A DNA stretch of 58,587 bases from Bacillota bacterium (GTDB lineage: Bacteria; Bacillota; Limnochordia; DTU087): positions 1 through 58,587 of the forward strand of contig JAAZLW010000066.1 in assembly GCA_012799135.1 (NCBI GenBank). Reading direction: 5' to 3'. The stretch's first letter is position 1. The number at the start of each line of letters is the position of its first letter. This document shows, one piece after another, positions 18,299 to 30,177 of this stretch. A model generated the notes under the pieces. The model saw only the letters and a program-made list of their open reading frames with translations, was not told the DNA's origin and ran no database searches. The position numbers and the translations under genes were made by a program.

Positions 18299-18326
18299 TT
18301 GACTTCGTGATGCTTTATGCTATGAT
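18299..18326 (+). promoter_or_regulatory. Sigma-A-type promoter of the riboswitch and SulP-Mrp operon
   Basis: TTGACT at 18299-18304 and TATGAT at 18321-18326 are 16 bases apart. Transcription would start near 18333, just before the riboswitch aptamer. A TATAAT at 18327 is too far from the -35 box to be its partner. Confidence 0.6.
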
Positions 18327-18339
18327 TATAATTGTGGCT

Positions 18340-18582
18340 TGCCTAAGCCCGAAAATGCACGTTATCTCCGAATTCCGCATACGGAAACGGGGGACCCCTT
18401 AATTGGGGTGAATCCTGAATATCAGGTAGGGCAACTTGGGTGCCCGAACCCGTCAGCTAACCCCGTAGGAGTGGTCCAAGCGTTAGGTTTTAGCCCCGGT
18501 AGACTTTGCTAGGCTCTTTCTGATACTGGCAGCGTCTCAGCCGGACTACTTGGTACCACTACTATAGACGGGGTGGTTTTTT
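18340..18582 (+). ncRNA. Cyclic-di-AMP riboswitch (ydaO/yuaA type) with expression platform
   Basis: The leader contains the conserved ydaO blocks: GGGGGACCCC and GGGGTGAATC around a short loop (18394-18409 stem), CCTGA/TCAGG at 18414-18426, GGGCA/TGCCC at 18429-18445, and CCCGTCAGCTAACCCCGTAG near 18449-18468. This RNA class binds cyclic-di-AMP and turns expression off. Downstream, ACCAC (18555-18559) can pair with GTGGT (18573-18577) followed by six T, a small terminator just before the start codon. ACCCCGT of the aptamer (18460-18466) can instead pair with ACGGGGT (18568-18574), which would break that hairpin. This gives a plausible ligand-off antiterminator. The aptamer edges are approximate. 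Confidence 0.9.
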
Positions 18583-20124
18583 ATGAAATCCTGGTGGGAG
18601 CGTGTGCGAGGAGAGGTAATCGGAGGAGCCACTGCGGCAGTTGTAGCTCTTCCCTTAGCTATGGCCTTTGGGATCGCTAGCGGGGCGGGAGCTGTATCTG
18701 GTTTGTATGCCTCGATTTTTGGTGGTTTGACTGCGGCGATATTTGGTGGCTGTGGTGTGCAGATCACCGGACCCACCGGCGCAATGACAGCGGTTCTAGT
18801 GATGGTTGTCAGCAAGCATGGGGTAAGCGGCATGCTATTAGCCGGAGCTTTGGCCGGCTTAATGCAGGTGATTCTCGGCCTTTTGCGGTTAGGCAAGTTT
18901 GTCAAGTTTCTTCCTCAGCCGGTAATTGCCGGTTTTACGAATGGTGTCTCCATCCTGTTTTTCATGACCGCAATAGATGATGCTTTACAGACCCCCTCGA
19001 TTACCGTGGTTACCACGCTGGTAATTCTCTTGGCATTGCGTTTCTTCAAACAGGTTCCGGAGTCACTCTTCGGGCTCGTTGCCGGCCTCGTCATGAATGA
19101 GTTGTTCATACACACCCCCCACGTGGTGGGGGATCTTCCTTTCACTATACCCCAGCCTACATTGGCACTGATGCCCTTTGGGGATATCGGTCATCTGATC
19201 AGGCCTGCGATTACGATCTGTCTTTTGGGAAGCATTTCGGCCTTGCTGTCAGCGGAGGTCACCGATGGGATGCTTGGCACCAAACATGATAGCAATCGAG
19301 AACTGATCGGGCAAGGTCTGGGAAATCTGGTTTCCTCTCTTCTAGGAGGTGTCCCCGTCTCCGGAGCCGTTGCTCGCTCAGGGGTAAATGTCCACAGTGG
19401 GGGTCGCACCCGCCTTTCCAGTATTCTCCACGCTGTCTTCCTGTTGATCATGGTCATAGCCTTGGGACCGGTGGCTAAGCGCATACCGCTGGCTTCTTTG
19501 GCTGCCATCCTGATGGTGGCTTCAGTGCGCACAGCCGACTGGAAAAGCTTAAAGCTGATGCCCCGGGCCCGGTGGAGCTATGGGGTAATCATGACTATCA
19601 CTACCATATTGACTGTGGTCCGGGACTTGACCATTGCGGTAGCAGTTGGGGTGGTCTTGGCCGCCGCTGTGGTAATGGTGGAATTAGCATCCATGCCCCG
19701 GGGCAGCGAGGTCGCTTCAAAGAAAGCCTCTTCAACTCCTGCTCACCCAGTTCATCCCGATGTTCAGGTAATGGCTTTTGATGGCCCATTGTTTTTTGTG
19801 GGGACAGAAAATCTAAGAAGCCAAATCAGGGATGCTTCCAGTAAACCGATCTTGGTCTTGGATCTCTCTAACGTGCCTACCATGGATGAAACCGGTGCCT
19901 TAGCACTTAAAGATCTAGCCGACCGACTGCAAAGGGAAGGCAAGAGCCTTTATATAGGCGGCCTCAAAGACAAGTCCTTACGGATGTTGGCTAGAATGGG
20001 TTTGGTAGGCGAGTTGAGCCGATCTCGGGTATGCAAGGGCCTGGGAGGTGCTTTACGCAGAGCTTCCGAGGAAGCAACCCTAATGGCTCAGGCTGAGTCC
20101 AAGCTATGTCCTCAGCAGGCATAG
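18583..20124 (+). CDS. SulP family anion transporter with STAS domain
   Basis: Membrane anion transporter of the SulP/SLC26 family, 513 residues. The N-terminal half has the family features GGATAAVVALPLAMAFGIASG and GPTGAMTAVLVMV. About ten or more hydrophobic segments run to residue 385. A C-terminal STAS domain follows (about 390-490; LDLSNVPTMDETGALAL). SulP proteins move sulfate, bicarbonate or other anions, often with Na+ or H+. The gene is first behind a cyclic-di-AMP riboswitch and ahead of an Mrp antiporter operon, which fits Na+-coupled bicarbonate uptake and pH control better than sulfate nutrition, but the substrate is inferred. Confidence 0.92.
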   Translation: MKSWWERVRGEVIGGATAAVVALPLAMAFGIASGAGAVSGLYASIFGGLTAAIFGGCGVQITGPTGAMTAVLVMVVSKHGVSGMLLAGALAGLMQVILGLLRLGKFVKFLPQPVIAGFTNGVSILFFMTAIDDALQTPSITVVTTLVILLALRFFKQVPESLFGLVAGLVMNELFIHTPHVVGDLPFTIPQPTLALMPFGDIGHLIRPAITICLLGSISALLSAEVTDGMLGTKHDSNRELIGQGLGNLVSSLLGGVPVSGAVARSGVNVHSGGRTRLSSILHAVFLLIMVIALGPVAKRIPLASLAAILMVASVRTADWKSLKLMPRARWSYGVIMTITTILTVVRDLTIAVAVGVVLAAAVVMVELASMPRGSEVASKKASSTPAHPVHPDVQVMAFDGPLFFVGTENLRSQIRDASSKPILVLDLSNVPTMDETGALALKDLADRLQREGKSLYIGGLKDKSLRMLARMGLVGELSRSRVCKGLGGALRRASEEATLMAQAESKLCPQQA

Positions 20125-20202
20125 CTCCGTGGGTAGCCTAGATGGCAATTATCAAGACCCCTATGGGGGCAGAGCATTGCAGCTAGTGATGGGGGGTTGA
20201 CT

Positions 20203-20781
20203 TTGAACAAGCGATCTTTGGTTTTATGTGCCATATTATTGGTATTTTGGCTGGTGGTCTCTGCAGAAGCAGACTTACAGCATATTTTGGTTGGGGCGCT
20301 TCTTGCCTTGGGAACCGTGTGGTTCTGGCAGGACCTTGGCCCAAGACTGCCCCGTTTGCTTTCGGCTACAGAACTGCTACTTTTGGGTCACTGTCTCGTA
20401 ACGTTGATTCGGTTTATCATTCAGTCGAATATTGCCGTGGCCAAGACTATCTTGCTATCGAGTCCACCGGTGGGACCGGTATTTGTGGTGATGCGCCCTC
20501 CCATTGAAAGTAACTGGGGGAGGGTGCTATTGGCCAATTGCATCACCATCACCCCAGGCACGGTGACCGTTGATATTGATCCTGAGACGGGCCAGTTCAT
20601 CGTGCATGCACTGACAGAAGAGGCCGCACACGGACTGTTTGATTGGCAGATCATTCAAGAAATCAGCAACTTAGAATCATGGGGACAAAGGAGGGCAAAA
20701 CATGCTGTGGCTGCTAGTAGGTCTCATGGTACTAATTCTGTTCGTACTCTTGCGGGCGATTATCGGCCCGACGGTGATTGA
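20203..20781 (+). CDS. mnhE: Mrp antiporter subunit E (MnhE/MbhA-like)
   Basis: Membrane subunit of the Mrp-type monovalent cation/proton antiporter, about 192 residues. Two N-terminal hydrophobic segments (LVLCAILLVFWLVV and HILVGALLALGTVWFW) and the later LLANCITITPGTVTVDIDPE are the MnhE signature. GGGGGG at 20191-20196 suits the TTG at 20203 better than the TTG at 20197. The frame runs 80 bases into the next gene. The last 25 or so residues are therefore translated from mnhF DNA in another frame and extend past the usual MnhE length of about 160. The gene opens the Mrp block. Confidence 0.88.
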   Translation: MNKRSLVLCAILLVFWLVVSAEADLQHILVGALLALGTVWFWQDLGPRLPRLLSATELLLLGHCLVTLIRFIIQSNIAVAKTILLSSPPVGPVFVVMRPPIESNWGRVLLANCITITPGTVTVDIDPETGQFIVHALTEEAAHGLFDWQIIQEISNLESWGQRRAKHAVAASRSHGTNSVRTLAGDYRPDGD

Positions 20782-21013
20782 TCGCTTGCTTTCCATCAAT
20801 GCGATTAGCAGCAAGGTCAGCATGATTATCTTGTTGATGGCATTCATGAGAGGCGATTATGGATTCATCGATGTAGCCTTTGTCTTTGTGTTATGTGGAT
20901 TTGTGGGAGGGCTTTGGATACTGCGGGTGCTAACCCCTGGTGATTGGCAGCTGAGGTTACCGGGGTTGGGCGGATTTGAAGGTGAGGGAGAGGAAGCGGT
21001 TTCTCATGATTAA
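20702..21013 (+). CDS. mnhF: Mrp antiporter subunit F (MnhF/MbhB-like)
   Basis: Small membrane subunit of the Mrp complex, 103 residues with three hydrophobic segments. The pattern RAIIGPTVIDRLLSINAIS is characteristic of MnhF. AAAGGAGG at 20690-20697 gives a strong start at 20702 although it lies inside the end of mnhE. The C-terminal tail past residue 80 is polar. The stop overlaps the start of mnhG by 8 bases, so the three small subunits are translationally coupled. Confidence 0.9.
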   Translation: MLWLLVGLMVLILFVLLRAIIGPTVIDRLLSINAISSKVSMIILLMAFMRGDYGFIDVAFVFVLCGFVGGLWILRVLTPGDWQLRLPGLGGFEGEGEEAVSHD

Positions 21014-21317
21014 GTTGTTAGCTAATGTCTGCTTTATCGGGTCTTTTTGCGCGTTTGCCCTGGGTACTTTGGGGCTGTTTCGCTTGCCGGATCCATATAC
21101 CCGCCTGCATGGGGTCGGTATGGGAGATACCCTAGGAGTGGGGTTGGGAGGCCTAGGACTCTTTCTGCTCAGCCCCAGTTGGGCTCTGCGGATCAAATTA
21201 CTGGTTATCCTGGCTCTATTTTGGACGATCAACCCCGCTATGACCCACCTAGTAGCTAAAGCGGGCCTAATACATGGGGTAGACCCGGTAGAGGGTACTA
21301 AACTGATCAAGGGGTGA
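21006..21317 (+). CDS. mnhG: Mrp antiporter subunit G (MnhG/MbhC-like)
   Basis: Small membrane subunit of the Mrp complex, 103 residues from the ATG at 21006, which overlaps the mnhF stop. The family signature FRLPDPYTRLHGVGMGDTLG is present between the first and second of three hydrophobic segments. The in-frame ATG at 20976 would add a charged tail not found in the family and is less likely. Confidence 0.9.
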   Translation: MIKLLANVCFIGSFCAFALGTLGLFRLPDPYTRLHGVGMGDTLGVGLGGLGLFLLSPSWALRIKLLVILALFWTINPAMTHLVAKAGLIHGVDPVEGTKLIKG

Positions 21318-21321
21318 GCAG

Positions 21322-21573
21322 ATGGAGTTTACGGCTGTCGATTATGGAACTATGGTTATGCTCTTGATCCTAGTGGCGGCTTCTCTGGCCATGTATTTTA
21401 TCAAGGATCTGATACATGCAGTGATTGTGTATGGAGCCTATACTCTGATCATGGCTTTAGTCTGGCTACAGATGAACACCCCTGATATTGCTATTACTGA
21501 GGCTGCGGCGGGGATTGGGATGACAGTTTTGATGATGGTGGTTATTTCTCGCACCAGCCGAAGGGAGGAGTAA
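21322..21573 (+). CDS. Mrp/Mbh subunit of the DUF4040 family (MbhD-like; MrpA C-terminal domain)
   Basis: Membrane protein of 83 residues with three hydrophobic segments and the DUF4040 motif MNTPDIAITEAAAGIGMTVLM. In canonical Bacillus Mrp systems this domain is fused to the end of MrpA. In archaeal Mbh/Mrp modules it is the separate MbhD subunit, as here. It starts 4 bases after mnhG, and its stop overlaps the next start (TAATG). Confidence 0.88.
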   Translation: MEFTAVDYGTMVMLLILVAASLAMYFIKDLIHAVIVYGAYTLIMALVWLQMNTPDIAITEAAAGIGMTVLMMVVISRTSRREE

Positions 21574-21872
21574 TGGTGAGGCTGCGGACTTTCGTAATTT
21601 TGCTCATTGCCTTATTAGCCGGTTATGTAGTCTTAATTGCCGTGGCCGAGTTGCCTCCCTACGGGATGCCTGGCAATCCCGCCCATAACGAGGTAACCCA
21701 ACGCTACATTGAAAACGCTCTGGAAGATACGGGAGTTCTCAATATGGTTACAGCCATTGTTTTGGATTATCGGGCCTATGATACTATGTTCGAAACCATC
21801 GTGTTGTTTACGGCAGTCCTAGCGGTGATTATCACCCTGAAGACAACAGAGGAAAAGGGTGGTGGGCAGTGA
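21573..21872 (+). CDS. Mrp/Mbh subunit MbhE-like (MrpA C-terminal / MrpB N-terminal domain)
   Basis: Membrane protein of 99 residues. An N-terminal hydrophobic segment is followed by an external loop (ELPPYGMPGNPAHNEVTQRYIENALEDTG) and NMVTAIVLDYRAYDTMFE, the hallmark of MbhE and of the matching MrpA domain. A second hydrophobic segment is at the C-terminus. Start and stop overlap both neighbours by 1-4 bases, so it is translated as part of one block. Its separation from an antiporter-like subunit again resembles archaeal Mbh modules. Confidence 0.85.
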   Translation: MVRLRTFVILLIALLAGYVVLIAVAELPPYGMPGNPAHNEVTQRYIENALEDTGVLNMVTAIVLDYRAYDTMFETIVLFTAVLAVIITLKTTEEKGGGQ

Positions 21873-22294
21873 GGGATTTTGTCCTAAAACGGGTTGCGGC
21901 ATTGCTCTTGCCTTTTGTCCAAATGTATGGACTATATGTGATTTTCCATGGCCATGTCTCCCCAGGGGGCTCCTTTGCCGGTGGTATCGTAGTGGGTCTA
22001 GCCTTCATCGCCTTTGCCACCATCTATGGTGTGCCAAGAGGTCGGGCAAAGCTACCGGAGAAGGTTACCACTCTGGCTGAGAGCTATGGGACCCTTTGGT
22101 ATGGACTCATGGGCATGGTAGGTATCATCAAGGGCGCTCCCTTTTTAGCCAATAAGTTGGCGGGAATTGATCTGGGAGTACCGGGAGCACTATCTTCTGG
22201 GGGGCTGGTTTCCCTTATCGGTCTCGGTGTTGGCATAAGGGTGGCCTCAACAATGGTTACTCTGTTTTTTACCATGATGGAGGAAGAGTCGTGA
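21869..22294 (+). CDS. mnhB: Mrp antiporter subunit B (MnhB/MbhF-like)
   Basis: Membrane subunit of the Mrp complex, 141 residues with four hydrophobic segments. The family pattern GLYVIFHGHVSPGGSFAGGIV near the N-terminus is clear. It starts with GTG at 21869, overlapping the previous gene by 4 bases, and its stop overlaps the GTG of mnhC. Confidence 0.92.
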   Translation: MRDFVLKRVAALLLPFVQMYGLYVIFHGHVSPGGSFAGGIVVGLAFIAFATIYGVPRGRAKLPEKVTTLAESYGTLWYGLMGMVGIIKGAPFLANKLAGIDLGVPGALSSGGLVSLIGLGVGIRVASTMVTLFFTMMEEES

Positions 22295-22674
22295 GCATAT
22301 TGCTAGAGAAATTAATGGTCAACTACCCATACTTCGCCGCGGTGATCTTGTTTATTATCGGTGCTCTCACGGTGCTGACCCGTTCTAACCTATTTAAGAA
22401 ACTGATCGGTATCAACATCATGGAAAGCGCCATTTTCCTCATGTTTATCGCAGCAGGCAACATCCGGGGTGGGGCTGTACCCATACTGGATCAGGCGAAC
22501 CCGAAGACAGCTTATATTAACCCAGTGCCTTCAGCTTTGATGTTGACGGGCATAGTGGTCAGTGTCAGTGTGACTGCTTTTGCTTTAGCATTGATTATCA
22601 GGTTATATCAATCTTACGGTACCACCGATTCCCGCCGGATAGCAGAGATGAAAAGTGAGGTGACAGATGGATGA
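22291..22674 (+). CDS. mnhC: Mrp antiporter subunit C (MnhC/NuoK-like)
   Basis: Membrane subunit related to NuoK of complex I, 127 residues with three membrane segments. The central part has NLFKKLIGINIMESAIFLMFI, with the conserved Glu of this family. ALMLTGIVVSVSVTAFALALIIRLYQ follows. It starts with GTG overlapping the mnhB stop and ends overlapping the mnhD start. Confidence 0.92.
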   Translation: MSILLEKLMVNYPYFAAVILFIIGALTVLTRSNLFKKLIGINIMESAIFLMFIAAGNIRGGAVPILDQANPKTAYINPVPSALMLTGIVVSVSVTAFALALIIRLYQSYGTTDSRRIAEMKSEVTDG

Positions 22675-24170
22675 TGGCGACCATTACGGCTAATTTACCG
22701 GTCTTTGTTGTCATCGCACCTCTGTTTGTCGCCTTCATCTTGCCTACCTTCGCCCATCGCCTACGGCTGGTGGAAGGACTGGTAATGGCCGTCGAGGCTT
22801 TGGGGCTCTTGGGGGCGGGATATTTGGCTTCCCTTATCCTTTTGCAGAAAGGCATTCCCGTTGTCTATAGCATGGGAGGTTGGTCAGCCCCGTGGGGTAT
22901 AGAATTGATGGTGGGCAATTTGAGTGCCTTCTTTCTCCTAGTGGTGGCCGGTGTCACTTTGCCGGTGGCCCTTTTCTCCATCGACAGCATGAGTCACGAA
23001 GTCGGTGGTCCCCAGCGAATCAGCCGGTTTTATGTACTTTACCTGCTGCTCAGTGGGGCCCTGGCCGGTATGGCTGTCACCAATGACCTTTTCAATGTCT
23101 TTGTCCTGGTAGAAGTAGCTACCCTAAGCTGCTGTGGTCTGGTAAGTGCCCGCAATCATCCCCGGGCAGCGGAAGCGGCCTTCAATTATTTGATCCTGGC
23201 AACACTGGGATCTGCCCTCATCTTGGGTGGTATTGGTTTTTTATATATTGTTACGGGACATTTGAATATGGGGTTTGCCTCTCAAGAACTAAGCTGTGTC
23301 TGGCAGGACTACTCGCACGTGGTATGGATAGCTGCCAGTTTCCTACTAGTGGGTTTTGGTGTAAAATCTGCTCTTTTCCCATTGCATGTTTGGCTACCGG
23401 ATGCTCACTCCACAGCTCCCTCCCCAGCCAGTGCTATCCTGTCTGGGTTGGCTATCAAAGGGTACTTAATATGCCTAATCAAGGTGCTGTACGTCGTTTT
23501 TGGCAATACTCTGATGCAGGAATACGCCATGCATCGAATATTGGTATTGCTGGGAATGATCGCGATTATTGCCGGGTCGCTTTTGGCTTTGGCACAAGAT
23601 GAACTCAAACGCAGATTGGCCTTTTCCACTGTTGCCCAGGTGGGATATGTATTCCTGGGGTTAGGACTGGTCAACACGAAGGGCCTTACCGGTACACTGT
23701 TTCACATGGCCAGCCATGCTGTAATCAAGTCCAGCCTATTCTTGGCGGCGGGAGCCATGATCAGTGCCACGGGCAAAAGTAGGATTAGTGAAATGGCTGG
23801 TATTGGTAGGAAAATGCCGGTCACTATGGCGGTCTTTACCATCAGTAGTCTGGGCTTGGTGGGTATACCGTTGTTTTCCGGGTTCATTGGCAAATGGTAT
23901 CTCTTGCTCGGCAGTTTAGGAGCGGGGAACTCGCTGGCGGCGGTGGTGCTGATCGCAGGAAGTGTACTATGCGCAGCTTACCTTTTCCCGATTATCCGCA
24001 TCGCCTATTTTGAACCGGTATCTGTGGAGGAGGATTGGCAGGACCCCGGCATGCCACAAAAGATTGCCCTGATCTTGCTGGCAGCTGGGGTGGTGATCTT
24101 GGGGATAGTACCAGGACCTTTCCTGGAGCTGGCCGGTAGGGCGGCGGCGGATTTACTGGTAATCCAATAG
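22671..24170 (+). CDS. mnhD: Mrp antiporter subunit D (MnhD), first proton-channel subunit
   Basis: Large antiporter-like subunit of the NuoN/NuoM/MrpD family, 499 residues with about 14 hydrophobic segments. The channel Glu of the fifth segment is in NVFVLVEVATL. The conserved Lys and its loop are in GVKSALFPLHVWLPDAHS, followed by APSPASAILSGLAIKG. DELKRRLAFSTVAQVGYV is the later lysine region. It sits where MrpD/MbhH is found in other operons and overlaps mnhC by 4 bases. Confidence 0.9.
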   Translation: MMATITANLPVFVVIAPLFVAFILPTFAHRLRLVEGLVMAVEALGLLGAGYLASLILLQKGIPVVYSMGGWSAPWGIELMVGNLSAFFLLVVAGVTLPVALFSIDSMSHEVGGPQRISRFYVLYLLLSGALAGMAVTNDLFNVFVLVEVATLSCCGLVSARNHPRAAEAAFNYLILATLGSALILGGIGFLYIVTGHLNMGFASQELSCVWQDYSHVVWIAASFLLVGFGVKSALFPLHVWLPDAHSTAPSPASAILSGLAIKGYLICLIKVLYVVFGNTLMQEYAMHRILVLLGMIAIIAGSLLALAQDELKRRLAFSTVAQVGYVFLGLGLVNTKGLTGTLFHMASHAVIKSSLFLAAGAMISATGKSRISEMAGIGRKMPVTMAVFTISSLGLVGIPLFSGFIGKWYLLLGSLGAGNSLAAVVLIAGSVLCAAYLFPIIRIAYFEPVSVEEDWQDPGMPQKIALILLAAGVVILGIVPGPFLELAGRAAADLLVIQ

Positions 24171-24192
24171 AGACGGGAGGAGGGTTTAGCAG

Positions 24193-25638
24193 ATGATTGA
24201 TTTAATTCTGGCTTTACTGAGTGGAGCGATCGGCGGGCTATGTGTAGCATTGATGCCCCGGGCAGGCAGCCGTTTGCGCAACACCATTACACTGCTTTTC
24301 ACTGTGGCCGGCACGATCTTCAGCTGGCGGGTGGCCGGCAGGGTATTGGGTGGCCAGAGTATTCGGATAGCTGGTGAGTTCGGGGGGCTGACCTGGAGCT
24401 TACACCCAGACCCGTTGGGGGCAGTCTTTGGTTTGATTGTTTCCACTCTGTGGATCTTTGCTGCTGTCTATTCCTATGGGTATATGGCAGGAGAGCAAAA
24501 ACAGCGGACTTATTACACCTATTTTCTTCTGGCTTTTAGTGTGGCTTTAGGGGTAGCCTTTTCCGGTAATCTCTTGGCTCTCTATCTGTTCTATGAAATA
24601 CTCACCTTTGTCACCTATCCTTTGGTCATCCATGAGCGTAATACAGAAGCCATGCAGGCCGGTGCCAAGTATATTATCTACAGTCTCTCAGGTGCAGGGG
24701 CGATTCTTATCGCTATAGTAATCACCTATGGCTGGACAGGTAATTTGGATTTCGCTGGTGGGCCACTGTTAGCCAATGGTGGCCTGAGGCCGGGCTTAGG
24801 TTGGCTCTTGGCCTTGTATGTTGCCGGATTTGGTGTAAAGGCGGCCATAATGCCGCTCCATCGCTGGTTGCCGGCGGCGATGGTAGCACCTACTCCCATC
24901 AGTGCGTTACTCCATGCAGTCGCAGTAGTCTACTCTGGGGTTTATGGGATATTGCGGGTAGTGTATTCAGTCTTCGGGCATGAACTGATGCGGGAGCTGG
25001 ATCTCAGTCATGTCCTCCCCTGGGTAGCGGCTTTTACCATCTTGGTAGGGGTGATCATTGCCACACAACAGGATGTTCTCAAGCGGCGCTTGGCCTATCA
25101 TACGATTAGCCAGCTTTCTTATATTCTCTTGGGAGCCTTCACATTGCATCCGTGGGGATTGGCTGGGGCTGTGTTCCATATGATCAGTTACTCCACCCTG
25201 AAGGTTACGCTTTTCTTTGGTGCAGGGATTATTGCTAAAGCGACCGGTAAGGTCAACGTCAGTGAAATGGGTGGGGTGGGGTGGCGGTTGCCCTGGACCT
25301 TGGCTGCCTTTGGTGTCGCTAGTTTGGGAATGATCGGAATGCTGCCTCTTAATACCTTTTGGAGTAAGTATTATTTGATGAAGGGCAGTGTAGCCGGGGG
25401 AAGGTGGCCACTGGCCGTGGTGCTGATCGTTAGTGGTGTTATCAATGCTTTTTGCTTCATTCCCACTGTGGTGACTGCCTTCACTGGAGGGAAAGGTCAG
25501 CTCACTGCGGAAAAGGGGGGCCAGGTCAGTCTCATGTTGGCTCCTACTGTAATGCTGGCTGGGATTGCGGTCTTGATCGGTCTTTGGCCGGGATTGGTTT
25601 GGCCAGGAGTTGAAGCTGTAGTCAATTGGTTTTTCTAG
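24193..25638 (+). CDS. Second MrpD/NuoM-like proton-channel subunit
   Basis: Antiporter-like membrane subunit, 481 residues. The channel Glu is in LYLFYEILTFVTYP, the lysine loop is GVKAAIMPLHRWLPAAMVAP, and the later part has DVLKRRLAYHTISQLSYI. GGGAGGAGGG before 24193 gives the ATG start. The protein has Leu and Ala where its neighbour has Asp-Ala-His in the loop after the Lys, so it is a separate paralogue and not a recent copy. It follows mnhD by 22 bases. Classical Mrp operons have only two such subunits. Confidence 0.88.
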   Translation: MIDLILALLSGAIGGLCVALMPRAGSRLRNTITLLFTVAGTIFSWRVAGRVLGGQSIRIAGEFGGLTWSLHPDPLGAVFGLIVSTLWIFAAVYSYGYMAGEQKQRTYYTYFLLAFSVALGVAFSGNLLALYLFYEILTFVTYPLVIHERNTEAMQAGAKYIIYSLSGAGAILIAIVITYGWTGNLDFAGGPLLANGGLRPGLGWLLALYVAGFGVKAAIMPLHRWLPAAMVAPTPISALLHAVAVVYSGVYGILRVVYSVFGHELMRELDLSHVLPWVAAFTILVGVIIATQQDVLKRRLAYHTISQLSYILLGAFTLHPWGLAGAVFHMISYSTLKVTLFFGAGIIAKATGKVNVSEMGGVGWRLPWTLAAFGVASLGMIGMLPLNTFWSKYYLMKGSVAGGRWPLAVVLIVSGVINAFCFIPTVVTAFTGGKGQLTAEKGGQVSLMLAPTVMLAGIAVLIGLWPGLVWPGVEAVVNWFF

Positions 25639-25655
25639 TGTAAGGAGGTTAGTCT

Positions 25656-27590
25656 ATGCTGCTCATAGTCCTTCCCGCTATTCCTTTAGTGGGAGTAATA
25701 GCCCTTCTTGGTATGCGGGGCAAGGATATCAATATGCCTTTGATCATTAGTTCAATTATTCTGCTCTTGGGGAGCTGGGGGCTAAAGGACGTGTTTTGGG
25801 GCGGGCCGTTGACCTACAGACTCTCGCTTTCCGGGCCATATGCTCCTACTTTTCGGGCTGATGCTTTGTCTGCTATTTTTGTGCTTCTGGCTGCGTTTCT
25901 ATGGTGGGTAGTCTCCATATATGCACCGGAGTATATGCAACACGAAGGCAGAGTACGCAGTTTCTATGTTTGTACGCTCTTGACCCTATCTGCGGTCTTG
26001 GGGGTCTTTCTCGCCGGCGATCTTTTCACTATGTTGCTTTTCTTCGAGCTGATGACTATAGCTTCTTTCTTCTGGGTGATCCACCGGATGAATAAAGAAG
26101 CGATTCGAGCCGGATACTTTTATCTGTTCTTTAGCATTGTCGGCGGTCTTTTCTTGGCTCTGGGGATTGTGCTGATGGGAGCAGCCACCGGTGATCTGCT
26201 TACCATCGGTACCGGCCCCGTAGATCCGTTGCAGCCACGCATGTTGGCGTGGGCTTTGGGCCTATTTGTCGCTGGGTTTGGGATCAAGGCCGGCATGGTG
26301 CCTTTGCATCTTTGGCTGCCTCATGCCCACTCTGTGGCTCCGACTCCAGCTAGTGCCCTCTTGTCTGGGCTCTTAATCAAGGTAGGAGCTTACGGACTGA
26401 TCCGCACGGGGGAGCTGGTCGGTTGGGGTATAGAGTGGGGAGGCATGGCAACTTGGTTAGGGCCTGCTTTGACTGTTCTGGGTACCTGTACCATGCTCGT
26501 GGGGGTGAGTGCCGCACTTCTGCAAAGTGATGCCAAACGGCTGCTAGCCTATCATAGTGTAAGTCAGATGGGTTATATTATCTTGGGGCTGGGTGTAGGT
26601 CTGCTCTTGGGGAAAGCGGGAGGACTGGGCCTGATGGGAGCGATCTATCATATTGTCAACCATGCCCTCTTTAAGGCAGCCCTTTTCTTGGGTGTTGGTG
26701 TAATCTATGTTCACACCCAAGAGGCCAACCTGTATAACCTTGGGGGTTTGTGGCGGCGCTTTCCGGTTACGGCCATACTGATGTTCCTGGCGGTTTTGGG
26801 TATTACTGGCGCACCAGGCCTGAATGGGTATGCCAGCAAGACTTTGCTTCATCATGCAGTCAGTGCCGTCGCTGAAGGCGGTCCACCTTGGATGGTCTGG
26901 GTGGAGCGACTGTTTTTGGTAGTTGGAGTTGGTACTGCTGCTTCCTTTACTAAGCTCTATTATCTTATATTCCTGGGACAACCCACAGAGATTGAGATTG
27001 CAGAAGGGCAGTCTCATCGCCTCCAGCTAGCCATGGCATTACTGGCCGTGGTGATGGTGGGAATTGGGCTCAAGCCAGGTCTTTTCCCTCAGGCCTTGGC
27101 GATACCGGCAGCTGAGGCATTGGGGATGGGGATGGCTCATGATGCGATGGTGGGCTTTTCCTTCTGGGATGCCGGTGATGTAGTAGGCATGCTAATCACT
27201 TTGGGGCTCGGTATGGCGGTGTGCTGGGCTGGCCTAAGAACCGGAGCATTCCATTGGCAGCCTCCGCTTTGGCTTACCTTAGAGGGCCTAGTGAGGATAC
27301 TTGGTCATGGTCTTTTAGCGGTCATTAGGGTTGGAGAAAGGTCTTACCGCTGGGTAGCTGCCCGTTTCTCAGAGCTAGGCAGGACCCTAGGGTCCCGCCT
27401 AGCCTCAGCCTGTCACAGGCTGGATCATGCCCGGGGTGGGACTATTGGTGGTATTACCTTGTCCGGAATCAGTGCTGATGCCTTCTTGTTGATGTTTACC
27501 TTAGCAGCCCTGATCGTCTGGTATGTTGCCTCACCTAGTCTGCGGTGGCCCTTATCTTTACCCACAGGGATAGGAGTACCGCTCCGGTAG
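25656..27590 (+). CDS. Third NuoL/MrpA-like proton-channel subunit
   Basis: Antiporter-like membrane subunit, 644 residues, the longest of the three. The channel Glu is in TMLLFFELMTIASFF, the lysine loop is GIKAGMVPLHLWLPHAHS, then VAPTPASALLSGLLIKVG, and later DAKRLLAYHSVSQMGYI. A C-terminal extension after about residue 480 contains extra hydrophobic segments, including one at the end, as in MrpA/NuoL-type proteins, but without the MbhD/MbhE domains, which are separate genes here. TAAGGAGG precedes the ATG. Its last 33 bases overlap the end of the convergent P-type ATPase gene. Confidence 0.88.
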   Translation: MLLIVLPAIPLVGVIALLGMRGKDINMPLIISSIILLLGSWGLKDVFWGGPLTYRLSLSGPYAPTFRADALSAIFVLLAAFLWWVVSIYAPEYMQHEGRVRSFYVCTLLTLSAVLGVFLAGDLFTMLLFFELMTIASFFWVIHRMNKEAIRAGYFYLFFSIVGGLFLALGIVLMGAATGDLLTIGTGPVDPLQPRMLAWALGLFVAGFGIKAGMVPLHLWLPHAHSVAPTPASALLSGLLIKVGAYGLIRTGELVGWGIEWGGMATWLGPALTVLGTCTMLVGVSAALLQSDAKRLLAYHSVSQMGYIILGLGVGLLLGKAGGLGLMGAIYHIVNHALFKAALFLGVGVIYVHTQEANLYNLGGLWRRFPVTAILMFLAVLGITGAPGLNGYASKTLLHHAVSAVAEGGPPWMVWVERLFLVVGVGTAASFTKLYYLIFLGQPTEIEIAEGQSHRLQLAMALLAVVMVGIGLKPGLFPQALAIPAAEALGMGMAHDAMVGFSFWDAGDVVGMLITLGLGMAVCWAGLRTGAFHWQPPLWLTLEGLVRILGHGLLAVIRVGERSYRWVAARFSELGRTLGSRLASACHRLDHARGGTIGGITLSGISADAFLLMFTLAALIVWYVASPSLRWPLSLPTGIGVPLR

Positions 27591-29756
27591 GCAGTGGCAG
27601 ATCCCTTGAGAACTAGGCCGGAAGCGGAGCGCTCTGGTCGAGTTAAGGACAGCCAAGAGTGCCACGCCGACATCGGCGAAAACCGCCTGCCAAAGGGTGG
27701 CTACTCCGGCAATTCCGAGAGCAATGAACAGGGCTTTGACGGCAAAGGCCAAAATGATATTTTGGATGATGATCTGCCGGGTGTGGCGGGCGATCCGGAT
27801 GGATTCAGCTACCTTACCCGGCCGATCCTCCATGATTACTACATCAGCGGCCTCAATGGCAGCATCAGAGCCGAGGCCTCCCATGGCAATTCCTACATCG
27901 GCCCGAGTGAGTACCGGAGCATCGTTAATTCCGTCTCCGACAAAGGCTAGCTTGCCTTGGCGCCCATCTTCATGAGCCAGGAGATTCTCTAGCTGAGTCA
28001 CTTTCTCATCGGGAAGCAACTCAGCATGGATCTCATCGATCCCTACCTCAAGGCCCACCTGCTCAGCAGTGCCCTTAGCATCTCCCGTTAGCATAACCGT
28101 CTTTCCTACCCCCAGATGGTATAGATCATGGATCGCTGTGGTAGCATCAGGTTTGATCTGATCAGCAATAGTAATGGTCCCGGCGAATTCTCCGTCTTTG
28201 GCCACATATACAGTGGTAACCCCATTGCCAGAGTCTGGAAAGAAGCTGACACCGCTACTGGCCAGTAACTTGGCGTTTCCCACCAGGATTTCAGCTCCAT
28301 TGATTCTCGCCCGGACGCCTTTCCCTGCGATCTCTTCATATTCCCCCTCACCGATGGTAGGTGACTCTGCCAAAGAGTTGGCCTTAAGGATAGAAAGGGC
28401 AATAGGGTGAGTGGAGTGAGCCTCGGCCTTTGCCGCTAAGTCTAGTACGGTCTCCGAAGTAAAGCCATTAGCCGGTGTAACCTGTTGGACTTGGAAAACG
28501 CCCTCGGTAAGGGTGCCAGTTTTGTCAAAAACCACTGTATCTATATCAACCAATGCATCCAAGTAGTTGGCGCCTTTGATCAGGATGCCCCGGCGGGAAG
28601 CACCACCAATCCCGCCAAAGTATCCTAGTGGTATGGAGATAACTAAAGCACAGGGGCAAGAGATCACTAAGAGCACTAGTGCTCTATGGACCCATTCCCC
28701 TAGACTGGCACCGGGAATGAGTATTGGTGGCAGTATTGCTACCAAGACCGCGCCGATTACGACTACCGGTGTATAGTACCGGGCGAGTTTAGTAATAAGG
28801 TGCTCTGTCGGTGCCTTACGGCTAGCGGCATTTTCCACTAGTTCTAAGATACGGGCCAGGGAAGTCTCCCCATATGCTTTTGTGACTCTAACTTGCAGCA
28901 ATCCAGAGTGATTGACCATGCCTGCCAGTACAGCTTCACCTGGGCATACTCGCTGTGGTACAGACTCTCCGGTGAGAGCCGAAGTATCGACAAAGGAATT
29001 GCCCTCGATGATCTCGCCATCGAGTGGTATCCGTTCTCCCGGTCTTACTATGATCATGCTGCCCACAGGTACTTGAGCAGGATCAACGGTTTCTATCCCA
29101 TCTCCAGTCTTTAGATTAGCAAAATCCGGCCGGATCTCCAGAAGTGATTGAATGGAGCTGCGGGAGCGAGATACAGCCATGTCTTGTAGCAGTTCGCCTA
29201 TATAGTAGAAGAGCATTACACCCACAGCTTCCGGCAAGTTGCCAATGGCAAACGCGCCTACAGTGGCAATGGTCATTAGGAAATTCTCATCGAAGATCTG
29301 GCCCTGGGTAGCATTGCGGATAGCTGCAGTAATAACCCTTCCACCCACCAGGAAGTAGGCGGTAAGGAAAACGATATATTGACCCCAGCCTCTACCCATC
29401 GTCTCTAGCTGGGACTTATATATGAGTCCAGTACCGAATAATATACCGGCAATGATCAGCGGCCAAAGTCTGACACTTTGCCGATGGCTCTCTCGGACCT
29501 CAGCCTCGGTGGTTGAGCGCTGTCCTTGCCCCTTGGGGTGAATCATCACACCTGGCTCTAATGCATCGATAATAGCTTGAGCCTGGGATACCTTGGCTGC
29601 ATCCATCATCAATGTGCTAGTGGCAAAGCTGATGGTGGCCTTAGCATCTAGGTCCTTCTGCAGTCGGGCTTCTATCTTGCTGGCACAATTGGCGCAATCC
29701 AGGCCACTTAAGGTGTAAGTCTCTGTTGCAGCTTCTATTAGCTCCGATGCGGGCAT
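27558..29756 (-). CDS. cadA: Heavy-metal P1B-type ATPase (Cd/Zn/Pb/Co exporter, CadA/ZntA type)
   Basis: Metal-exporting ATPase of the inner membrane, 732 residues. The N-terminal metal domain has GLDCANCASK. The transport motif is CPC in VISCPCALVIS, the phosphorylation site is FDKTGTLTEG, the HP motif is in STHPIALS, and the hinge is GDGINDAPVLTRADVGIAMG. CPC with GxxCxxC and no copper-type Met motifs points to Cd, Zn, Pb or Co. The ATG at 29756 has AGGGGAAA before it; the frame upstream enters the ArsR gene. It is 10 bases behind a CadC-like repressor gene, an ordinary cadmium/zinc resistance pair. Confidence 0.93.
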   Translation of the reverse strand: MPASELIEAATETYTLSGLDCANCASKIEARLQKDLDAKATISFATSTLMMDAAKVSQAQAIIDALEPGVMIHPKGQGQRSTTEAEVRESHRQSVRLWPLIIAGILFGTGLIYKSQLETMGRGWGQYIVFLTAYFLVGGRVITAAIRNATQGQIFDENFLMTIATVGAFAIGNLPEAVGVMLFYYIGELLQDMAVSRSRSSIQSLLEIRPDFANLKTGDGIETVDPAQVPVGSMIIVRPGERIPLDGEIIEGNSFVDTSALTGESVPQRVCPGEAVLAGMVNHSGLLQVRVTKAYGETSLARILELVENAASRKAPTEHLITKLARYYTPVVVIGAVLVAILPPILIPGASLGEWVHRALVLLVISCPCALVISIPLGYFGGIGGASRRGILIKGANYLDALVDIDTVVFDKTGTLTEGVFQVQQVTPANGFTSETVLDLAAKAEAHSTHPIALSILKANSLAESPTIGEGEYEEIAGKGVRARINGAEILVGNAKLLASSGVSFFPDSGNGVTTVYVAKDGEFAGTITIADQIKPDATTAIHDLYHLGVGKTVMLTGDAKGTAEQVGLEVGIDEIHAELLPDEKVTQLENLLAHEDGRQGKLAFVGDGINDAPVLTRADVGIAMGGLGSDAAIEAADVVIMEDRPGKVAESIRIARHTRQIIIQNIILAFAVKALFIALGIAGVATLWQAVFADVGVALLAVLNSTRALRFRPSSQGICHCLPERYSYPCG

Positions 29757-29766
29757 GATCTTTCCC

Positions 29767-30132
29767 CTACCTTTCTTCAGCAAAGTGTTCTTGAGCCTGA
29801 TGAATGAGGTTTACTATATGATCGTCATCCAATGAGTAAAAAACTTGCTTGCCTTCTCGGTGGTATCTAACCAGACGCATGGCCTTCAGCAGCCGCAGAT
29901 GGTGAGATATTGCCGGTAATGACATCTCCAAGATCTCAGCCAAATCGCAGACACACAGTTCCTCTTCAGAAAGAAGGTAGATGATTTTGGTCCTGGTTTC
30001 ATCACCGAGGACCTTGAAAAGCTCGGATAGACCGGCTACCTCCAGCACTTTCTCCCGTAATCTGTCCATCTCCCGGCAGTTGGGGCTATATTGATCACAT
30101 ATATCCTGGCAGGAACGGTCACTCTCAGTCAT
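29767..30132 (-). CDS. cadC: ArsR/SmtB family metal-sensing repressor, CadC-like
   Basis: Winged-helix repressor, 121 residues, that leaves DNA when it binds metal. The alpha-3 metal motif is ELCVCDLAEIL, and the N-terminal arm has three further Cys (SCQDICDQYSPNC). This combination is that of the CadC alpha-3N cadmium/lead site. The recognition helix is LPAISHHLRLLKAMRLV. GAGGTGAGG before the ATG at 30132 fixes the start; the longer frame enters the operator. It is cotranscribed with the P-type ATPase and should repress its own promoter through the adjacent palindrome. Confidence 0.93.
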   Translation of the reverse strand: MTESDRSCQDICDQYSPNCREMDRLREKVLEVAGLSELFKVLGDETRTKIIYLLSEEELCVCDLAEILEMSLPAISHHLRLLKAMRLVRYHREGKQVFYSLDDDHIVNLIHQAQEHFAEER

Positions 30133-30153
30133 ATGCCTCACCTCTACGTTTAG

Positions 30154-30177
30154 ACGATTAAACAAGTGTTTAATCGT
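30154..30177. promoter_or_regulatory. CadC-type operator
   Basis: ACGATTAAACA (30154-30164), AG, TGTTTAATCGT (30167-30177): a perfect 11-2-11 inverted repeat. ArsR/SmtB operators have the same form (12-2-12, often with TTAAACA-like arms). It lies right after the -10 box of the minus-strand promoter, covering the transcript start. Confidence 0.85.

Follow-up and report, generated by a model that had tools for sequence, protein, structure and literature searches.

A c-di-AMP riboswitch that probably activates a SulP–Mrp transporter operon in a Bacillota bacterium

A contig of 58,587 nucleotides (nt) from a Bacillota bacterium (JAAZLW010000066.1; the whole stretch is called the window below) carries a gene for an anion transporter of the SulP family, a set of genes for an Mrp-type cation/proton antiporter and, in front of both, a leader resembling a riboswitch for cyclic-di-AMP (c-di-AMP). 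This messenger holds down the import of K+ and of osmolytes, while its action on efflux at the level of genes is much less well understood. The locus therefore raises the question of whether a single riboswitch governs both transport systems and in which direction it acts. Our analysis, which relies on sequence comparison and predicted structures, suggests that the SulP–mrp operon is controlled by a c-di-AMP riboswitch that has a promoter of its own and most likely activates the operon at high c-di-AMP; we hold this with moderate confidence.

The preliminary description of this DNA had recognized a ydaO aptamer in the leader at 18340-18582. The Rfam covariance models (cmscan) bear this out, matching the c-di-AMP (ydaO) riboswitch RF00379 on the plus strand at 18356-18487 with 94.8 bits (E 3.9e-21; gathering score 38 bits) over the full model (1-134), the sole Rfam match across the whole window. 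The remainder of the leader, with 95 nt from the aptamer end to the start codon of SulP, is the expression platform. In the model alignment the P1 5′ strand CUCC (18366-18369) pairs with GGAG (18468-18471) and the helix strand ACGGGG (18387-18392) with CCCCGU (18461-18466). The loop strand CUUGG (18435-18439) forms the 3′ pseudoknot with the tail CCAAG (18476-18480), a complementarity that is preserved in other leaders despite sequence change. The aptamer 3′ strand ACCCCGUAGGAGUGGUCCAAG (18460-18480) comprises the partner of ACGGGG, the P1 3′ strand and the pseudoknot CCAAG, and it is this strand that the alternative structures use. A probable promoter on the plus strand (18299-18326; TTGACT and TATGAT separated by 16 nt, with the TG of an extended −10 element) lies 30 nt upstream of the aptamer, and the orthologous leaders are preceded by similar sequence. 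The same genome encodes a protein with a diadenylate cyclase (DAC) domain and holds three riboswitches of the c-di-AMP class, and we infer that the window aptamer binds c-di-AMP. Another of these riboswitches (L002, G000:C121:59-181, 89.4 bits) is situated at the end of its contig; about 60 nt follow it, and no gene can be assigned.

Does the riboswitch act on SulP alone or on the mrp genes as well? SulP stands directly behind the leader and the Mrp genes come next in the same orientation, separated by small gaps, an arrangement proposed earlier which the gene families confirm. No terminator had been seen between SulP and Mrp, and on the plus strand of the SulP–MrpE gap we likewise found neither a terminator-like nor a promoter-like site, in a scan of low power whose number of hits equalled the expectation from shuffled sequence. 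A survey of other genomes for this linkage, suggested earlier, was informative. When the riboswitch family was searched for in 12 genomes of the order, the order riboswitch–SulP–mrp was identical in 11 of them, that is in all in which the locus was found, and across two families; the genome of the second family (L045) retains it at about 53-79% protein identity. The window aptamer scores as high as those of these relatives. One metagenome-assembled genome (G009) has two such loci (L036 and L037), one of them more than 90% identical to that of the window, by duplication or in a mixed bin.

We then compared the positions of the riboswitch, SulP (PF00916) and MrpE (PF01899) in 73 genomes of the class. 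Each window-type SulP closely follows a c-di-AMP riboswitch, which is missing in front of all three of the other strong SulPs. The riboswitch occurs with SulP in two genomes without an MNHE (MrpE) match (G012 and G014), and in two others MrpE lies on other contigs (G067 and G072). These cases would fit a riboswitch that controls SulP alone, the mrp genes being transcribed separately or, in the window, insulated by translational control of the first gene only, as reported for nlpC of Corynebacterium glutamicum. We consider this rather unlikely, given that the riboswitch is also found immediately 5′ of MrpE with no SulP between (G042) and 5′ of a canonical mrpA-type operon (G017), and that the scan of the SulP–MrpE gap gave no sign of separate transcription units. 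Moreover, the synteny persists where SulP decays: in G002 (L016/L038) and G005 (L013/L043) SulP is an eroded pseudogene with large internal deletions, and the aptamer and mrp are retained. SulP is intact in G001 and G004 of the same genus. As the losses are recent, they argue only modestly for mrp as a target in its own right. Taken together, the conserved synteny, the riboswitch in front of mrp without SulP and its retention beside pseudo-SulP make joint control of SulP and mrp likely, and the effect on mrp would be exerted through one mRNA. Of the earlier proposal that one switch serves SulP and the whole Mrp operon, the identity of the riboswitch and the linkage are supported, and joint control is likely from the comparative evidence.

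The direction of the switch is suggested by the expression platforms of the orthologues, which have a hairpin and a U-run immediately after the aptamer. In G006, G007, G008, G009b, G010, G001, G002 and L150 the 5′ arm of the best terminator is the aptamer 3′ strand itself (P1 and pseudoknot), with predicted energies of the best hairpin from −15.8 to −22.8 kcal/mol and a short U-run in G010. In G011, G018, G004 and more distant relatives the terminator starts at the AAG of the pseudoknot strand. Forbidding the aptamer strand is predicted to cost 6-23 kcal/mol in the strand-sharing group and leaves nothing terminator-like in G006 and G008. Since the terminator arm is the aptamer 3′ strand, a ligand locking this strand should favour read-through.

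In the window the corresponding terminator is present as a decayed relic (18478-18525; −9.1 kcal/mol) whose U-run is gone. A region further downstream, CUUGG-U-ACCACU..ACGGGGU (18549-18574), reproduces two strands of the aptamer, CUUGG of the pseudoknot loop and ACGGGG of the helix, and this mimic can pair with the aptamer 3′ strand at 18460-18480 in a predicted duplex of −30.8 kcal/mol. Its ACGGGGU includes part of the Shine–Dalgarno site of SulP, GGGGUG (18570-18575), which is sequestered in the predicted ligand-free fold: the site is unpaired with a probability of 0.01 in the free fold versus 0.19 with the aptamer held folded. In 9 of 12 leaders tested, the window included, this probability is at most 0.04 in the free fold, and it rises in each with the aptamer held; no rise was seen in G006 or G008, the leaders with the strongest strand-exchange terminator. 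The aptamer 3′ strand is thus predicted to lie inside either a terminator or a helix sequestering the Shine–Dalgarno site. The two platforms appear to replace each other, and both predict an activating (ON) switch.

We infer the following course of events. In the absence of ligand the aptamer 3′ strand (ACCCCGU-GGAG-CCAAG) would be free for downstream pairing; in most orthologues it would then form the 5′ arm of an intrinsic terminator, and in the window it would pair with the CUUGG/ACGGGG mimic and bury the Shine–Dalgarno site of SulP. Bound c-di-AMP would lock the strand into the aptamer, where it contributes to P1, to the ACGGGG helix and to the pseudoknot, and would so free expression. The purpose of the switch might be to increase both Na+(K+)/H+ antiport and the transport of anions once c-di-AMP reports high K+ or turgor. 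The control of these transporters by c-di-AMP, as put forward in the preliminary description, stands in this account; the direction, which was not addressed there, is the part that the orthologue platforms now suggest to be activation.

The loss of the U-run from the orthologous terminator could also mean that the window copy is degenerate, with an intact aptamer, a decayed expression platform and constitutive expression. Decay of this kind is seen in G005, where the whole region adjoining the start codon has been lost with part of SulP. We regard it as improbable for the window, where the aptamer scores as high as in the relatives and the alternative pairing over the Shine–Dalgarno site is strong (−30.8 kcal/mol) and is found in close relatives too.

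A more serious concern arises from a terminator-like hairpin peculiar to the window, ACCACU..GGUGGU followed by a U-run (18555-18582; −6.2 kcal/mol). In a conventional OFF switch the ligand would free ACCACU, so that the hairpin at 18555-18577 forms and, with the U-run, ends transcription immediately ahead of the SulP start codon; in the ligand-free state the aptamer 3′ strand would act as antiterminator by holding ACCACU and GGGGU. The hairpin, which is separate from the aptamer, does appear when the fold is computed with the aptamer held, and this was our first reading of the window. It was demoted because the hairpin is not conserved: it needs one G that the closest orthologues lack (they read GGUGA, not GGUGG), although their U-run remains. 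In addition the stem is weak, the orthologue terminators are built from the aptamer strand itself, and the very pairing invoked as antiterminator hides the Shine–Dalgarno site in the ligand-free state. We therefore judge an OFF switch unlikely here.

A broader comparison of 124 distinct leaders of the class, typed by terminator architecture, bears on the same question. Of these, 66 show fusion of terminator and pseudoknot strand; their terminator begins at position +15 or +16 relative to the conserved AGCUAAC, and the overlap is mostly 3-4 nt. In the 20 leaders typed as separate the overlap is zero. The genes behind fused leaders encode Na+/H+ exchangers (PF00999), Mrp, SulP, VEG and small zinc-ribbon proteins, and those behind separate leaders encode solute-binding proteins of the SBP_bac_5 (OppA-like) and OpuAC types, TrkH and KtrA. 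Both architectures coexist within a family, as the leaders of SulP and OppA-like genes do in f1 and those of PF00999 and TrkH genes in f8. With a stricter automatic typing the antiporter/Mrp leaders were 12 fused to 0 separate and the uptake leaders 2 to 9 (Fisher p 6.7e-5, kinship being ignored); by eye the two fused uptake exceptions look like antiterminator hairpins misread by the script. Antiterminators are clear by eye in single leaders, namely L230 (GAGUGG with CCAUUC) and L070 (GUAUGUGGU with ACCACAAUAC). KtrB leaders of the Bacillus type have the separate architecture. Outside the class, our sample of the phylum contains mainly the separate or a terminator-less type, in front of lysine 2,3-aminomutase, KtrB, KimA, amino acid uptake and similar genes (names read from the protein sequences). 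Automatic calls of the fused type outside the class (L237, L254, L290, L300 and L310) were rejected, those inspected looking like long-hairpin artefacts.

The same logic is found in two other sets of c-di-AMP riboswitch leaders whose platform sequences are unrelated to those of the window type, and whose SulPs lie outside that type. A SulP of UBA5301 (41% identity) follows a c-di-AMP aptamer of 84 bits with the pseudoknot GCUUUUC:GAAAAGC; the terminator arm is GAAAAGCGAGU...ACUCGCUUUUUU and includes GAAAAG. In the SulP leaders of family f57 a hairpin of the P1 3′ strand and pseudoknot is predicted to hide the start codon and an upstream GAGGG with −22 to −23 kcal/mol. From these observations one may propose that an ON-type c-di-AMP riboswitch is widespread, with the pseudoknot/P1 strand placed in a terminator or in a helix blocking the Shine–Dalgarno site, and that its targets include cation/H+ antiporters (Mrp, CPA), SulP carriers and genes of other kinds, the importers of these bacteria being under OFF-type control. 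We consider this generalization about as likely as not.

Several observations weigh against activation. All experimentally tested c-di-AMP riboswitches in the literature cited here are OFF switches (PMC9960051, PMC9337991). In the window the Shine–Dalgarno site is still mostly paired with the aptamer held, partly in the window-only hairpin, and this hairpin with its U-run (18555-18582) could terminate transcription in the bound state, the main threat to activation in this copy. Parts of the long pairing are broken in G006 and L150. Within the class, unconstrained folds do not discriminate the architectures, the equilibrium probability of the terminator having a mean of 0.93 in fused and a median of 0.92 in separate leaders; many of the fused overlaps comprise only 3 nt and leave a stem that is still strong, and an antiterminator test based on duplex energies gave no clear outcome in either group.

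Known systems provide partial precedents. The ydaO/yuaA (RF00379) leaders of KtrB/TrkH-type genes in Bacillus relatives (L230, L231 and L234) share the aptamer family, the position of the pseudoknot and the location 5′ of ion transport genes. In these leaders, however, some 20 nt separate the pseudoknot strand from the terminator, and the members that were tested are repressors of K+ or osmolyte genes. The window type instead uses the aptamer 3′ strand within the inhibitory structure itself, and its targets are an anion carrier and a cation/H+ antiporter. The nlpC riboswitch of C. glutamicum also responds to c-di-AMP, lacks a canonical terminator and is thought to act on translation, but it was shown to be OFF and its gene encodes a cell wall peptidase (PMC9960051). 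In the ZTP (pfl) riboswitch, a transcriptional ON switch, aptamer and terminator likewise compete for the 3′ pseudoknot strand and the ligand causes read-through (PMC10085676, PMC7337938); aptamer family and ligand are different, and the output of the window switch is probably translational. The Na+-I riboswitch, known also from a Na+/c-di-AMP tandem, controls antiporter and ATP synthase genes and is switched ON through overlap of aptamer and terminator, but it has another ligand, and the c-di-AMP member of the system is an OFF switch for lysine 2,3-aminomutase (PMC9337991).

In the open-access literature we found neither an ON-type c-di-AMP riboswitch nor SulP or mrp as its targets, nor a description of SulP carriers in c-di-AMP physiology; key subscription papers lie outside that literature and may mention such cases. 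The riboswitch family itself is already known, and the SulP/mrp targets and the reversed platform are apparently new within this scope. If activation holds true, one messenger would reciprocally control import (down) and export (up) through RNA, and SulP carriers would join the c-di-AMP regulon. The physiological reading would change as well, cation efflux being switched on at high c-di-AMP, and a pseudoknot strand inside the terminator is offered as a sequence rule for the direction of c-di-AMP riboswitches.

The SulP protein (18583-20124, plus strand, 513 aa) has the PF00916 and STAS domains. The bicarbonate role considered earlier is not borne out by the family scores, as the protein reaches only 263 bits against the NCBIfam BicA equivalog with its cut-off of 880 and is also far below the cut-off for the sulP subfamily. 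Its nearest solved relatives by sequence among SulP/SLC26 structures are 5da0 (sulphate transporter) and 6ki1 (low affinity sulfate transporter), the latter of which we take to be BicA.

Behind SulP, ten Mrp/Mbh-type antiporter genes assigned by family matches follow on the plus strand with small gaps or overlaps: MrpE (MNHE; 20197-20781), MrpF (20702-21013), MrpG (20976-21317), an MbhD domain protein (21322-21573) and an MbhE domain protein (21573-21872) that correspond to C-terminal parts of MrpA, MrpB (MnhB; 21869-22294), MrpC (NuoK-like; 22291-22674), two MrpD-like antiporter subunits (22671-24170 and 24193-25638) and a third, HyfB/MrpA-like antiporter subunit as the final gene of the operon (25656-27590). 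Of the mrpA-G set of Mrp (CPA3) antiporters, E, F, G, B, C and D are present; MrpA is divided among MbhD, MbhE and the further antiporter subunits, an arrangement shared with Mbh-type modules. A minus-strand open reading frame (27558-29783) delimits the block, which extends to 27590. Reading of the proteins assigns the minus-strand region 27558-30165, tail to tail with mrp, to a heavy-metal P-type ATPase and an ArsR-type regulator, the frame of the putative ATPase overlapping the last mrp gene by 33 nt.

Further c-di-AMP riboswitches stand in front of other genes. One (L059, G012:C250) precedes what by eye is an F-type ATP synthase operon (atpI-like, then atpB-like) and carries a CCAAGCG..GCGCUU hairpin in its leader; another (L127, G029:C87) precedes the gene of a membrane protein with DUF1538 (PF07556, 407 bits), which may be a further ion transporter. 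Riboswitches of the fused type are found before VEG (PF06257) and small zinc-ribbon proteins (L098, L100, L122, L124, L129, L145 and others), and in the family to which the window belongs, riboswitches that lack a terminator (L003, L021-L028) likewise precede zinc-ribbon genes. Those before SBP_bac_5 peptide-type proteins (L004-L009, L070-L072, L108 and L138) mostly have separate terminators, with antiterminators visible by eye in L070 and L006. Finally, riboswitches of several lineages (L063, L064, L066, L238, L268 and others) precede genes of the octopine/nopaline dehydrogenase type, assigned by PF02317 in L066 and by similarity in the remaining leaders.

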